Shown here: piece after piece, positions 49,500 to 56,475 of the stretch
Numbering within the stretch: position 1 is the first letter of the stretch
Layout: each line of letters opens with the position of its first letter
NCBI RefSeq assembly: GCF_036924515.1
Contig: NZ_JAZHRR010000001.1
Coordinates: 7,039,001-7,103,000 of the forward strand
Direction of reading: 5' to 3'
Length of the DNA: 64,000 bases
From: Bradyrhizobium sp. AZCC 1610
GTDB lineage: Bacteria > Pseudomonadota > Alphaproteobacteria > Rhizobiales > Xanthobacteraceae
Notes under the pieces: model-generated
The model's database searches: none
Seen by the model: the letters and a program-made list of their open reading frames with translations, nothing else
What the model was told of the DNA's origin: nothing
Translations under genes and position numbers: made by a program

Positions 49500-50264
49500 A
49501 TGATGGATCGGCCGGATCAAACCACCCATTTTGGCTTCAGGGACGTGCCCCTGGGGGACAAGCAGACGCTGGTGAACGACGTATTTCATAGCGTGGCGTC
49601 CCGTTACGACCTGATGAACGATCTGATGTCGGCGGGCCTGCACCGGGCCTGGAAGGACGTCATGATCAATGCGCTCAATCCGCCGAAAAACGATGCGCCC
49701 TTTGCCCTGCTCGACGTCGCCGGCGGCACCGGCGATATCGCCTTCCGCGCCGCCGAGACGGCAGGCCACGGCTTCCACGCCACCGTCTGCGACATCAACA
49801 CCGATATGCTCGAGGTCGGCCGCAACCGCGCCATGGCGCGGCATCTCGACCACCAGGTTTCATTCGTCGAGGGCAATGCCGAGGCGCTCGCGTTCGGCGA
49901 TCGCAGCTTCGATGCCTACACCATCGCGTTCGGCATTCGCAACGTGCCGCGGATCGACGCCGCGCTCCGCGAAGCCTATCGCGTGCTGCGACCCGGCAGT
50001 AGATTTTTGTGCCTGGAATTCTCCACCGTCGACGTCCCCGGGCTCGACCGGCTCTACGACTTCTTTTCGTTCAAGGTAATCCCGCCGCTCGGCCGTGCCG
50101 TAACGGGTGATGCCGAGTCCTATCAGTACCTCGTCGAATCGATCCGGAAATTCCCCCGGCCCAATGCATTTGCCGAGATGATCCGCGACGCCGGCTTTGC
50201 GCGGGTGAAGTGGGAAAGCCTCTCCGGTGGCATCGTGGCGTTGCATTCGGGCTGGCGTTTGTGA
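49500..50264 (+). CDS. ubiE: Ubiquinone/menaquinone C-methyltransferase UbiE
   Basis: SAM-dependent methyltransferase of ubiquinone synthesis, 254 residues. Signatures are [26 protein letters not shown] (about 24-50), the SAM loop [14 protein letters not shown] (about 70) and [23 protein letters not shown]. The ATG at 49500 follows a GGAG site. Its stop overlaps the ubiB GTG. Confidence 0.97.
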
Positions 50265-51835
50265 TTTCTGCGGCGACCCACATCGCGCGGCTTGTCCGCG
50301 CCGCTTACGTGTTCGCGCGCGAAGGCGTGTTCGGCGTCGTCGATCCAAGTCTCGTGCCGCCGCCCGGGCAACTCGCACTGCGGCTGGCGCGGCTGATCGA
50401 ACGCCCGGGCGCCAAATCCGGCCCACGGCTGTCGCGCGCGCTGACGCGGCTCGGCCCCGCTTACCTCAAGCTCGGCCAGTTTCTGGCGACGCGGCCCGAC
50501 GTGGTCGGCGTTGCGATGGCGCGCGATCTGGAAGCCCTGCAGGACCGGCTGCCGCCGTTTTCGCAGGCCGAAGCCGAGGCCATGATTGCCGCGTCGCTGG
50601 AACGCTCTGTGGCTAAAGTGTTTGTCAGCCTCGGGCCGGCGGTCGCCGCCGCCTCGATCGCACAGGTGCATCGCGGCGAGATCGAGCGGCATGGTGTACG
50701 CCAGCCGGTCGCCGTCAAAGTGCTCCGGCCCAATGTCGCCACGCGCTTCCGGCGCGACCTCGGTGATTTCTTCTTCGTCGCGCACAATGCGGAAGCGCAT
50801 TCGGCCGAAGCGCGGCGGCTGCGGCTGATCGAGGTCATCAACACGATGTCGCGCTCGGTCGCGATGGAAATGGACCTGCGGCTCGAGGCGGCCGCGCTGT
50901 CCGAGATGGCGGAGAACAGCCGCGACGATCCGGACTTCCGCGTACCGGCCGTCGACTGGGACCGCACCACCCACAACGTGCTGACGATGGAATGGATCGA
51001 CGGCATCGCGCTGAACGACCACGCCCGCCTCGAAGCGTCGCATGTCGACCTGCCCGATCTCGGCCGCAAGGTGATCCAGAGCTTTCTCCGTCACGCGCTG
51101 CGCGACGGCTTCTTCCATGCCGACATGCATCCCGGCAATTTGTTTCTCGACGATGCCGGCCGGCTGGTGGCGGTCGATTTCGGCATCATGGGCCGGCTCG
51201 GGCTGAAGGAGCGGCGTTTCCTTGCGGAGATTCTGCTGGGCTTCATCACGCGCGACTATCGCCGCGTTGCCGAAGTGCATTTCGAGGCCGGCTATGTGCC
51301 GGGCCATCACTCGGTGGAGAATTTCGCGCAAGCCATCCGCGCCATCGGCGAGCCGATCCATAACCGTACCGCCGAAGAAATCTCGATGGCGAAGCTGTTG
51401 ACGCTGCTGCTCGAGGTCACCGGGCTGTTCGACATGCAGACCCGGCCCGAACTGATCCTGCTGCAGAAAACGATGGTGGTGGTCGAAGGCGTGGCGCGCG
51501 GCTTCGACCCCAAGCTCGATATCTGGAAGGTCGCCGACCCCGTGGTGCGCGAATGGATCGAGCGCAATCTCGGTCCGCTCGGGCGGGTTCAAGGCGCGAT
51601 GTCCGGCGCGGGCGAACTCGGCCGCGTGATGGCGGGCCTGCCTGCAATCGCCTCACGGGCGGTTGCCGTGATCGAGAACATGGAGAAGATGACCCGGGAA
51701 GGCCTAACGCTGTCGCCGGAGACGATTGCGGCCATAGGCCGGGCCGAGGGCCGCAAGAGCCGCTGGCGGACGGTGGCGCTCTGGGTGATCGCGGCGACCT
51801 TTATCGGAATTTTGGTAGCTATCCGGCAGCTATGA
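50261..51835 (+). CDS. ubiB: Ubiquinone biosynthesis kinase-like protein UbiB
   Basis: Atypical protein-kinase-like ATPase needed for ubiquinone synthesis, 524 residues. It has the KxGQ motif ([14 protein letters not shown]), the Ala-rich nucleotide loop ([11 protein letters not shown]), the Lys of VAVKVLRP and the [11 protein letters not shown] and VDFGIMGRL motifs. Two membrane helices lie at the C terminus (last ~25 residues and before). GTG 50261 overlaps the ubiE stop, giving GTGA; a longer frame lies inside ubiE. Confidence 0.96.
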
Positions 51836-51839
51836 TTGC

Positions 51840-51864
51840 AATGCTGTCATAATATGATAGCATT
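51840..51864. promoter_or_regulatory. Inverted repeat upstream of coaBC resembling a FitA operator
   Basis: Arms at 51840-51850 and 51854-51864 pair at 10 of 11 positions around a 3-bp centre. The core half-sites are TGCTGTCA (51842-51849) and TGATAGCA (51855-51862). From memory, the gonococcal FitA antitoxin site contains TGCTATCA and TGATAGCA half-sites, so this differs by one base and has shorter spacing. It sits 4 bp after the ubiB stop and 26 bp before the coaBC ATG, and covers a -10-like CATAAT. TGATTGCA also occurs directly on each side (51833 and 51864). Confidence 0.7.
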
Positions 51865-51890
51865 GATTGCATCGTTTGCCGGAGGCCACC

Positions 51891-53330
51891 ATGGCCAGCC
51901 TGACCATCCGAAAACTCGACGAAACCGTCAAAGCCTATCTGCGTCTCCGCTCGGCCGGGAACGGTCGCTCCGTCGAAGAGGAAGTCCGGGTCATCCTCGG
52001 GGAGCTGATACAGGGGCGCCCCGAATTGCCGGGCGGCGTCTCCTCGCCGGCCACAGAGGCTCCCGAGCAGGCCTCGCGGTCCGTCAGCCCTCACAGCGAA
52101 CGGAATGTTACCCTGATCATAGGCGGCGGCATCGCCGCGTTCAAATCGCTGGAACTGATCCGGCGGCTGAAGGAGCGCCACATTAACGTCCGCTGCGTGC
52201 TGACCAAGGCCGCGCAGCAATTCGTCACGCCGCTGTCCGCCAGCGCGCTGTCGCATGAGCGCGTCTATACCGATCTGTTCGATCCCGGCAGCGAATTCGA
52301 CGCCGGCCATATTCGTCTGGCGCGCGAATGCGATCTGATCGTGGTGGCGCCGGCAACCGCGGATCTGATGGCGAAGATGGCGCACGGCCACGCCGACGAT
52401 CTCGCCAGCGCGATCCTGCTGGCGGCAGACCGGCCGATCCTGCTGGCGCCCGCGATGAACCCCTTGATGTGGAACAATGCCGCCACCCGCCGCAACGTGC
52501 TGCAGCTTCGGCGCGACGGTATCCATATGATCGGCCCCAGCGCCGGCGAAATGGCCGAGGCAGGGGAAGCGGGGGTCGGGCGGATGTCGGAGGCGATCGA
52601 AATCGCAGCCGCCGCCGTCGACATTCTCCGCCCACCGCGACCGCGTCCGCTGGCGGGCAAGCGCGTGCTGATCACGGCGGGGCCGACGCATGAGGCGATC
52701 GATCCCGTGCGCTATATCGCCAACCGCTCCTCCGGTAAGCAGGGTTTTGCCATCGCCGCCGCCGCACAGGCCGCGGGCGCCGATGTCACGCTGGTCTCCG
52801 GACCTGTGGAATTGCGCGATCCCGCGGGCGTAACCGTCATCCGTGTCGAATCGGCGCGCGACATGCTGCATCGGGTGGAGGCTGCGTTGCCGGCCGACAT
52901 CGCGATCTTCGCAGCCGCCGTTGCCGACTGGCGCGTCGCCAACGAGGGCGAGCAGAAGCTGAAAAAGACTTCTGCGGGAATGCCGCCGCTGCAACTGGTC
53001 GAAAACCCCGACATTCTCGCGACGATCTCGAAGCTGCAGGACAAGCGTCCGCCGCTGGTGATCGGGTTTGCCGCCGAGACCGAGCATCTGATCGACAATG
53101 CCAAGGCCAAGATCGCGCGCAAGGGCTGCGACTGGATCGTCGCCAACGACGTCTCGCCCGCGCTGGGGGTGATGGGCGGCGACCGCAACACCGTTCATCT
53201 GCTGACGCGCGACGGCGAGGACATCAATGGCGATGGCATCAAGGTGGAGTCCTGGCCGGTGATGACCAAGGAGCAGGTCGCCGCCGAACTGGTGGCGAAG
53301 ATTGCCAAGACCGTGGAGAAGAATTCGTGA
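51891..53330 (+). CDS. coaBC: CoaBC (phosphopantothenoylcysteine synthase/decarboxylase) with N-terminal FitA-like RHH domain
   Basis: Bifunctional CoA-synthesis enzyme of 479 residues. Residues 1-42 ([16 protein letters not shown], then [14 protein letters not shown]) match the ribbon-helix-helix domain of FitA/VapB-type antitoxins. A linker of about 30 residues follows. The CoaC flavoprotein part (about 72-250) has [12 protein letters not shown], the catalytic His of AGHIRLARE and the APAMNPLMW motif. The CoaB part (about 258-475) has [22 protein letters not shown] and AAVADWRV. The loop that carries an active Cys in E. coli (ACGD) reads [12 protein letters not shown] here. GGAGG at 51881 supports the ATG. 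Follows ubiB, overlaps dut. The RHH part plus the upstream operator suggest self-regulation. Confidence 0.93.
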
Positions 53331-53785
53331 GCGCGAACGTGAAAGTCGAGGTCTGCCAACTGCCGCATGGCGAAGGCCTTCCGCTGCCGGCCTATCAAAG
53401 CGCTGACGCCGCCGGGCTCGACCTGCTGGCCGCAGTTCCGACGGACACGCCCTTGATCCTGCCTCCGGGCAAATATGCGATGGTGCCGACCGGGCTGACG
53501 ATCGCACTGCCTTCCGGTTTTGAGGCGCAGGTGCGGCCGCGTTCCGGGCTTGCCGCCAAGCATGGCGTTACCGTCTTGAATTCGCCGGGCACGGTGGATG
53601 CGGATTACCGTGGCGAGGTCAACGTGCTTCTGATCAATCATGGCGACACGCCGTTCCCGATCCGGCGCGGCGAGCGCATCGCGCAGATGGTGATCGCGCC
53701 GGTCGTGCAGGCGCAACTCGTTCCGGTGGCCTCGCTTTCAACAACCGATCGCGGCAGTGGCGGTTTCGGCTCGACTGGACGCTGA
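53327..53785 (+). CDS. dut: Deoxyuridine 5'-triphosphate nucleotidohydrolase
   Basis: Trimeric dUTPase of 152 residues that keeps uracil out of DNA and supplies dUMP. Motifs 1-5 are visible: [47 protein letters not shown] and the C-terminal [15 protein letters not shown] 53327 overlaps the coaBC stop. The coaBC-dut pair is widespread in proteobacteria. A 169-bp gap without a gene follows. Confidence 0.97.
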
Positions 53786-53954
53786 ATCGTTTAGTAAAGA
53801 CTATGCTCAACGGTAACCGGCTGAATTTTTCACAGCCATATTTGCGTTCACGGTCTGGACTCTTACCGGTCGACTCCCGAAGGGGATACTCTCGACCCGA
53901 TTCGTGCTCGGCGGGGGTAGCGCCGGGCCCAGTCGTGCGTTTTTGGGGCAAATA

Positions 53955-56475
53955 ATGTCGGGCGTAGTCGCGGCGATGCGTCGAACCCTGCTGTCGTGCA
54001 CCTCACCGGCGCGCCACGGCGTGATTGCGCTCGCCACCGCCCTCTCCGTCTCGCCGGAACCCGCGTTGGCCGCTGACTTGACCATCACGCAGACGATTTC
54101 CGCCCTATTCGACCTCAATCACCAGGAATTTGCGGTACTGACGACGGCGCTGTCGCTGCTCGGCTTTACCGTGGTGGCTGCGATCCTGCTGATGCGCACG
54201 CGCGTCCAGGCCACTCGGATGGAACTCAACCTGCGCTCCGACATCGCCGACCTGCAGGTGCAGGCCGACCGGCTGCGCGCGCTCTTGTTTGCCGAGCCCC
54301 AGATCCTGATCGCCTGGGCCGCGGGCGACAACCGGCCCCAGATCAGCGGTGACACCTCGCTTCTGATCTCGCAGGACGCGCTGTCCAATTCGCCGCAGCG
54401 TATCCTCGCCTTTGGAACCTGGCTGCCACCGGAACCGGCGCTGCAGATGGACCGTGCGGTCGACGCGCTGCGCGAGGCTGGCGAAGGTTTTCTGCTCAAT
54501 CTCTCCACCTCGAGCGGCCGCGCCATCGAAGCGATGGGCCGCGCCATCGGGGGGCAAGCCATTGTGCGGATTCGCGAACTCGGCGGCTTGCGCCGGGAGC
54601 TCGCCGAATCCAATCTCCGTTACAGGACGCTTGTGGAAGAGACCGAGCTGCTGCGCGACTTCGCCGCCTCTGCGCCCTGGCCGATCTGGGCCAAAAGCGT
54701 CGAGGGCAATCTGCGTTACGCCAATGCGGCCTATGTGCGGGCCACCGAGGGCGCAAGCGTCGCGGATACGATCCACCGCAGCCTCGAACTGCTGGAGAAC
54801 GACCAGCGCACCGAGATGGGCCGGGTGCTGAACGACAATTCCACCTTTAGCGCGCGGCTGCCGATCGTGGTGGGCGGCGAGCGGCGCATCTATGATGTTC
54901 AGGCGCTCAAGCTCGGGAGCGGCAGCGCCGGCATCGCCATCGACGCCAGCGAGGCGACCGCATTGCGCGACGCGATGGAGCGGATGGCGGAAGCCCATCG
55001 CCGCACCCTCGACCAGCTGGTCGTCGGGGGTGGCCGTGTTCGACGGCCAGCGGCGGCTTGCCTTCTACAACGAATCCTACCGGCGGCTGTGGGGCCTCGA
55101 TCAGGCCTTCCTCGATTCCAATCCCGACGATTCAAGCGTGCTCGACCGGCTGCGCGCGGCGCGCAAACTGCCCGAACAGCCCGACTTCCGGGCCTGGAAG
55201 GCCAAGCTGCACCAAGCCTACCGCGCCGTGGAGCCCGTGAACTACACCTGGTTCCTGCCCGACGGCCGCGCCGTCAGCGTCGTCACCACGCCGAACCTCG
55301 AAGGCGGCGTCACCTATCTGTTCGACAATGTCACCGAGAGCCTCGATCTCGCGCGCCGCTACGACCGGCTGACCCGGGTTCAGCATGAGACGCTCGACAA
55401 TCTCGCTGAAGCGGTCGCGGTGTTCGGCAGCAATGGCCGCGTGGAGCTGTTCAATCCCGCTTTCGAGAAAATGTGGAAGCTGTCGGCGGAAGCGCTGAAG
55501 GAGCAACCCCACATCGAGACCGTCGAAGCATGGTGCAAACCGCTGTTCGACGACGCGCTGACCTGGCGGGCGCTGCGCGAAGCGATCACCGCGATCGAGA
55601 ACCGGGCGCAGGTGGCGCTGAAACTCGAGCGCAAGGACGGCAGCGTGCTGGACTGCATGACCATGCCGCTGCCGGATGGCGCGACCATGCTGACCTTCCA
55701 GGACATCACTGACACCGAAAATGTCGAGCGGGCGCTGCGCGAGCGCAACGAGGCGCTGGAAGCCGCCGACCAGATGAAGGTCGATTTCGTCCACCACGTG
55801 TCCTATGAGCTGCGCGCCCCCCTCACCACCATCATCGGCTTCGCGCATTTCCTCAGCGACCCCTCGACCGGCCCGCTGACGCCAAAGCAGGCCGAGTACC
55901 TCGACTACGTCACCAAATCGACCAACGCGCTGCTTGCGCTCACCAACAACATCCTCGATCTCGCCACCATCGATGCCGGCGCCATGAAGCTCGAGCTCGG
56001 CCCGGTCAATATCGAAAAAGCCATCCAGGCTGCCGCCGAAGGCATTCAGGATCGGCTGGCAACCGACCGCATCGAACTCAAGGTCGACATCGATCCCGAT
56101 ATCGGCAACTTCATCGGCGACGAGCGGCGCGTGGTGCAGGTGCTCTATAATTTGCTCGCCAACGCCGTCGGATTCTCGCCGCACGATGCCGCGGTCACGA
56201 TCAGCGCGCAGCGGACCGAGCATCGCGTGATCTTTACCGTCAGCGATTCCGGACCCGGCATTCCGGCTGACGTGAAGGACAAGGTGTTCGACTGGTTCGA
56301 GAGCCACTCCCATGGCTCGCGGCACCGCGGCGCCGGCCTCGGCCTGTCGCTGGTGCGCTCCTTCGTCGAGCTGCATGGCGGCAAGGTGCGCGTCGATTCG
56401 GTGGTCGGCAAGGGCACGACGGTCACCTGCGACTTTCCGATCGACCAGAACGCGCATCGCAACGCCGCCGAATGA
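53955..56475 (+). pseudogene. divL: Sensor kinase DivL, split by a +1 frameshift
   Basis: DivL-type regulator of the CtrA cell-cycle pathway. It has an N-terminal membrane segment (about 55-78), PAS-like regions, then HisKA and HATPase_c domains. The H-box reads HHVSYELRAPLT, with Tyr (codon 55804-55806, about residue 617) where kinases have His; this marks DivL. The ATP domain keeps the N box (NLLANAVGF), GPGIP and GAGLGLSL. The first frame runs to about 55020 (HRRTLDQL) and the second takes over at SSGVAVFDGQRRLAFYNESYR. One surplus base lies in 55019-55031, which includes a run of five G. Corrected length is about 839 residues. The stop overlaps tsaE (ATGA). divL is essential in Caulobacter, so a sequence error is quite possible. 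Confidence 0.85.

Follow-up and report, generated by a model that had tools for sequence, protein, structure and literature searches.

An antitoxin-type ribbon-helix-helix domain fused to CoaBC in Bradyrhizobium, with paired FitA-type sites predicted before the gene

The gonococcal FitAB half-site is TGATAGCA. FitA binds DNA through its ribbon-helix-helix (RHH) domain and the toxin stabilises the complex without DNA contact of its own (PMC3920265), an RHH on a flavoenzyme makes PutA an autogenous repressor (PMC5293562), and CoaBC of mycobacteria forms a dodecamer under regulation by CoA thioesters (PMC7794376). We have found no description of an RHH-bearing CoaBC in the open-access literature, a scope outside which most subscription papers lie, and a search there for CoaBC together with an antitoxin returned only papers unrelated by title. 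The bat/bto system is a module of B. japonicum. No tie between it and coaBC was found in the accessible part of PMC6902015, and the terms pantothen, Dfp and CoaB gave no hit in the main text of a 2009 toxin-antitoxin (TA) survey (PMC2701414).

We have analysed the coaBC gene of Bradyrhizobium sp. AZCC 1610 in a stretch of 64,000 nucleotides (the window; Table 1), where its neighbourhood consists of ubiE, ubiB and dut. The first-pass annotation had read one open frame, from the ATG at 51891 to a stop codon ending at 53330, as CoaBC preceded by the RHH of FitA antitoxins, and had named a Pfam search of the N terminus as a check. The limits of the frame are as it gave them, and PF22513 (FitA-like_RHH) matches residues 2–38 with 51.5 bits (E 9.6e-14, Pfam; curated cut-off 27). 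That the enzyme domains follow in the same frame is borne out by the Pfam matches to Flavoprotein (residues 72–234) and DFP (254–438), and the TIGR00521 CoaBC equivalog is reached across both domains (390.2 bits, residues 70–471; cut-off 219.7). CoaBC therefore carries an N-terminal antitoxin-type RHH, and the fusion is real. As in PutA, the RHH stands in frame with an enzyme; the PRODH and P5CDH domains of the PutA family are absent from the window protein, for which Pfam gives Flavoprotein and DFP. No PIN match lies beside the RHH at this locus, where the RHH runs into CoaBC. A start of translation behind the RHH, near residue 70, which the annotation had set against its own reading, fails for this gene because no start codon is present there; from residue 42 up to the CoaC core, the frame offers a single start codon, TTG at residue 46, and a start 3' of the RHH was rejected.

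Table 1 Features at the coaBC locus (window coordinates)
Feature	Position	Strand	Basis
ubiB, upstream neighbour	50210..51835	+	TIGR01982
Predicted operator site 1, 17-bp dyad TGATTGC-AAT-GCTGTCA	51833..51849	.	24.7 bits, best site in 64 kb (TA-trained matrix)
Tentative weak promoter-like pair TTGCAA-16-TAGCAT, overlaps both dyads	51836..51863	+	8/12 consensus letters; under the strict-scan threshold
27-nt inverted repeat, inner halves of both dyads	51839..51865	.	13-nt arms, 92% complementary
Predicted operator site 2, 17-bp dyad TGATAGC-ATT-GATTGCA	51855..51871	.	21.2 bits, second-best in 64 kb
coaBC with N-terminal RHH	51891..53330	+	479 aa; ORF, Pfam, TIGR00521
FitA-type RHH domain, residues 1-38	51891..52004	+	PF22513 match, residues 2-38
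Variable linker, residues 39-69	52005..52097	+	Few conserved columns (25 proteins); pLDDT <50 at 41-68
CoaC, Flavoprotein domain	52104..52592	+	PF02441, residues 72-234
CoaB, DFP domain	52650..53204	+	PF04127, residues 254-438
dut, downstream neighbour, 4-base overlap with coaBC	53327..53785	+	NF001862, PF00692

In the AlphaFold monomer of the window CoaBC, helices are formed at residues 11–24 and 28–40, as in an RHH, and the RHH strand is not formed in this model of middling confidence (mean pLDDT 67.1). The nearest solved RHH structure is N. gonorrhoeae FitA (2h1o, 2bsq), a weak match with E about 0.01. Since the linker sequence varies, there is no hint of a fixed contact between the RHH and the enzyme. 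Judged by eye, the toxin-binding tail of separate antitoxins (L053, L033 and similar) is absent from this linker. Further downstream, at 53904–56475, a histidine kinase gene is seemingly split over two overlapping frames, one (53904–55388) without a Pfam match and the other (54892–56475) with PAS, HisKA and HATPase, with a possible frameshift near 55.03 kb.

The fusion is conserved in Bradyrhizobium and its relatives, as had been suggested earlier. In the survey of the order, 290 of 297 genomes have a coaBC match and at least 15 of the matches align from residue 1–2, including all 9 of the window's genus among those listed. For the family of the window, 244 of 248 genomes have a match, and 146 of the 150 among the matches listed, from many genera, align from residue 1–2. 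In the draw from the class (185 of 240 genomes with a match), only the window's own protein, among the matches listed, begins before residue 31. In addition, residues 1–69 are matched within CoaBC-sized proteins of 1720 clusters, and each of the 120 listed shows both PF22513 and PF02441; the genome-wide scan described below points the same way. A chance match to the RHH was rejected on these grounds, namely a PF22513 score above the cut-off, an alignment from residue 1–2 that is kept in relatives, and the number of matching clusters. Across 13 loci compared within the genus, the RHH (residues 2–38) has a pN/pS of 0.17 and the first 50 CoaC residues have one of 0.18; T5, R7 and S27 are invariant in 42/42 fused loci of the family and 27/27 of Mesorhizobium. 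By these measures the RHH is under purifying selection.

In a quick LG+G4 tree of the core (121 hand-chosen loci, midpoint-rooted, long branches flagged), the fused rows of the window's family form one branch beside an unfused g2 row, and the unfused g157 and g131 rows lying inside it are read as losses of the domain. The fusion states interleave over the tree with 25 changes, at least 8 of them forced by starred branches, which is not a count of fusions. In one further locus, L098, the RHH and CoaBC lie in different frames; other fetched members of its genus are fused, and the case is either a sequencing error or a real split. Considering that L098 is out of frame and the g157 and g131 rows are unfused, the RHH is dispensable in some lineages.

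For the DNA before the gene, we trained a site matrix on 32 Mesorhizobium TA loci, taking from each the best dyad upstream of the antitoxin gene, and then scored other loci with it; only TA loci of another family were used for training because circularity was to be avoided. In the window, the first three bases of site 1 are the stop codon of ubiB, and the two dyads are spaced by 22 bp. Both fall within 51830–51890, which the first-pass annotation had named for a gel shift without mention of the dyads. We compared each locus with 40 dinucleotide shuffles of its own. Among fused loci, a site above all 40 is present in 41 of 42 from the window's family, in the only one from another family (f16) and in all 27 from Mesorhizobium; the proportion is 1/9 outside and 3/8 inside Mesorhizobium for unfused loci, where the 110 bases scored are those before the aligned core and not before a known start. 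At a threshold of 14 bits, sites are found in 41/42 and 27/27 fused loci of the window's family and of Mesorhizobium, and in 0/9 and 2/8 unfused loci outside and inside Mesorhizobium. The unfused Mesorhizobium sites look like scars of TA operators after ubiB. Among loci fetched later, a fused one (L246) scores 18.0 bits and four f16 TA loci 17.4 to 26.1 bits, 14 unfused loci score no more than 2.9 bits, and 19 further unfused ones no more than 6.5 bits. The window's family and f16 together gave 43 fused loci; in the 16 of them picked by hand, the dyads are 22–23 bp apart. L090 is the sole fused locus of 70 without the predicted operator, and the 110 bases before its start contain repeat-like DNA.

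Overall, a FitA-type dyad precedes the window coaBC as it does in FitAB, and the gene has predicted sites of its own as in PutA. An antitoxin-type DNA-binding domain together with matching predicted sites before the gene indicates that CoaBC probably controls its own gene. Of the two regulatory roles that the first-pass annotation had offered, the one directed at the own gene is thus favoured in silico by paired sites kept together with the fusion. The control of other genes finds no such backing: the zero-mismatch site occurs at one place in the 7.75-Mb genome, before coaBC, and one 1-mismatch site occurs elsewhere, versus 1–2 for the control pattern. A wider regulon was rejected because of this uniqueness.

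A strict promoter scan before coaBC gave no promoter. With loose promoter calls, the best promoter-like pair and the dyad share bases in 33/41 and 24/27 fused loci (window's family and Mesorhizobium) and in 5/32 TA loci. The shuffle contrast for these pairs is strong, yet we do not use it as proof because the dyad motif itself is AT-rich. We also considered reading the motif as an mRNA hairpin and not as a DNA operator, but put this aside because TA modules of other phyla have it ahead of fitA as well. We scanned a collection of 84,980 species genomes with the pattern TGATTGCATTGCWATCA-N20-50-ATGGCNAGC, which requires a Met-Ala-Ser-like start and neither an RHH nor CoaBC. It gave 115 places, and an RHH stands at the beginning in all of them. 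In 71 the frame runs into CoaBC (46 Mesorhizobium, 17 Bradyrhizobium, and 8 others including Nitratireductor), and in 36 a PIN gene follows (Gemmatimonadota, Actinomycetota, Chloroflexota, Nitrospinota, Paracoccus and others); a further 7 run off the end of the stretch, and 1 was left unassigned to either class.

The origin of the fusion can be followed in Mesorhizobium, where 145 of 146 genomes have coaBC, aligned from residue 1–2 in 100 and not so in 45. We fetched 43 of these 45 loci (G413 and G425 were left out): 32 have a separate RHH antitoxin and PIN toxin, 8 are bare, and 3 (L048, L056, L065) are fusions of another antitoxin type, while an antitoxin alone before coaBC is found in 0 of the 43. 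In all 32 TA loci, the start of coaBC overlaps the stop of the toxin gene or follows it by no more than 26 bp; for L045 our script found no ATG for coaBC, and another start codon was used. Pfam confirms antitoxins and toxins in 3 of 3 TA loci tested. The 24 loci fetched out of the 100 aligning from the start are all fusions.

The junctions differ in kind. In L018 the antitoxin breaks off within its tail and continues into the 5' flank of coaBC; in L065 almost the whole antitoxin is joined to the coaBC start, and a second separate RHH is kept further upstream; in L048 and L056 CoaBC bears one antitoxin and also the tail of another; and L112, as well as L121 with L125, keeps the tail GES/ETLYAAIR...VEPHGGFD found in separate antitoxins. 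The RHH of L018 is 0.92 identical to that of the nearest separate antitoxin; the value is 0.95 for L056, 0.97 for L065 and 0.81 for L112, whereas the identity of these RHHs to fusions of other families is 0.59 to 0.68. L018 and L056 may be of one origin despite their differing junctions, because their RHHs are 0.89 alike. In L023, L027, L028 and other Mesorhizobium loci, the PIN gene is preceded by two consecutive RHH genes. In L102, a PIN toxin gene lies directly before coaBC, and the ORF upstream of it is not recognised as an RHH.

Beyond Mesorhizobium, fitAB-like pairs before coaBC occur in 4 of 6 f16 loci, which were fetched on search hints, and at one locus (L270) of family f35; no intact TA parent was seen in the window's family itself, and the origin of its fusion hence rests on the Mesorhizobium analogy and on the shared operator. 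Judging from these loci, an origin by loss of the toxin gene is well supported in Mesorhizobium, and by analogy it may hold for Bradyrhizobium. Of the proposal that CoaBC is a domesticated antitoxin that can also neutralise a PIN toxin elsewhere, the origin stands, given the fitAB-coaBC loci and the several kinds of fusion in Mesorhizobium, and the neutralisation is not supported, as the toxin-binding tail is missing. The window genome has 5 PIN matches, and its only PF22513 match is in CoaBC; an obvious cognate PIN module was rejected for this reason.

Another DNA-binding domain has been observed on CoaBC in f16. The CoaBC of L266 (1312–2730) bears an N-terminal Xre-type HTH (PF01381, 26.3 bits; cut-off 23), GGATATATCCA is found twice, 19 bp apart, just before its start (1272–1310), and 10 Xre-HTH-CoaBC proteins were found in the database. 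In the same family, L246 carries the RHH on its CoaBC. L247 and L267 resemble each other in a third kind of N-terminus, roughly 65 residues long and unmatched in Pfam, which is possibly another DNA-binding domain.

Based on the above analyses, we consider it probable that the RHH of CoaBC was taken over from a FitA-type antitoxin and now serves to repress the coaBC gene itself. A fitA-fitB module would have lodged in the ubiB-coaBC interval, its toxin gene overlapping the coaBC start or ending shortly before it, and loss of the toxin gene would then have joined the antitoxin frame to coaBC. The RHH domains of CoaBC subunits may pair and bind both dyads, and the bound CoaBC would keep RNA polymerase off, so that the amount of CoaBC sets its own expression. 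The CoaBC oligomer may have taken over the scaffold role of the toxin, holding RHH pairs on the operator, which would fit the lack of an antitoxin-alone state among the fetched Mesorhizobium loci. The sequences show the domain, the predicted sites, the conservation of the two together and the intermediate loci, and from these we infer DNA binding, repression, the scaffold role and any ligand control by RHH-CoaBC. Against self-repression stand L090 without the operator, the frame split of L098, the unfused g157 and g131 rows, the empty strict promoter scan, the strandless RHH of the AlphaFold model and the variable linker. A broader proposal, to which we give somewhat less than even chances, sees CoaBC of Hyphomicrobiales as a trigger enzyme in the synthesis of CoA. 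Here TA modules before coaBC would repeatedly have been turned into autoregulation by toxin loss and antitoxin fusion, the oligomer would act as a scaffold on paired operators, CoA-pathway ligands would tune the repression, and the capture of the unrelated Xre HTH in another family would indicate that selection for control of this step by its own enzyme occurred more than once.

The same sites could also serve an RHH that activates coaBC or tethers the enzyme to DNA instead of repressing. The direction of control is not readable from sequence, and the RHH protein AmrZ is both activator and repressor, as stated in PMC3325190. We regard this as unlikely, considering that the precedents FitA-FitB and PutA repress; the overlap of the dyad with promoter-like pairs in fused loci also speaks against it, as weak evidence given the loose calls and the lower count in TA loci.

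A passive relic, left by a deletion of the toxin gene that joined the frames without harm and under no selection for DNA binding, would suit fusions that arise repeatedly through simple deletion-like joins, and also the loci L098 to L101, where the domain is absent or out of frame. However, the RHH has a pN/pS equal to that of CoaC, the contact-strand residues T5 and R7 are invariant, and the predicted operator is kept with the fusion in 41/42 loci and absent from unfused controls outside Mesorhizobium, so we find such a relic rather improbable. Least probable is that the fused domain still acts as an antitoxin neutralising a PIN toxin. The young Mesorhizobium fusions L112, L121 and L125 do have a tail resembling the one on separate antitoxins, and the antitoxin in L065 is nearly whole, but the window protein is without such a tail, no PIN gene adjoins its coaBC, and the genome has only one PF22513 match for 5 PIN matches.

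If self-repression is true, RHH-CoaBC would be another RHH flavoenzyme controlling its own gene, in a basic biosynthetic pathway. It would also illustrate how a housekeeping regulator can come from a TA module, with intact loci, recent fusions, old fusions and scars all present in one genus. In rhizobia, the fusion opens a direct way to test how the level of CoaBC, and perhaps that of CoA, is controlled.

Compared with known systems, the window locus shares with the type II TA module FitA-FitB (PF22513 antitoxin, PF01850 toxin) the RHH family and the dyad motif, which also precedes fitA in several phyla, whereas it has neither a toxin gene nor a toxin-binding tail, and its RHH is part of a metabolic enzyme. 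Canonical CoaBC, such as that of M. smegmatis (PDB 6tgv), has the same CoaC and CoaB domains, but no DNA-binding domain or extension. The Xre-HTH-CoaBC of f16 (L266) resembles the window protein in that a DNA-binding domain stands at its N terminus and repeats closely precede its start codon, and differs in its helix-turn-helix fold and repeat, its DNA-binding function being putative. Trifunctional PutA, an autogenous repressor of put (PMC5293562), likewise has an N-terminal RHH on a bifunctional flavoenzyme and putative sites at its own gene, while CoaBC is another enzyme, of a biosynthetic pathway, with an antitoxin-type RHH and a visible TA origin.
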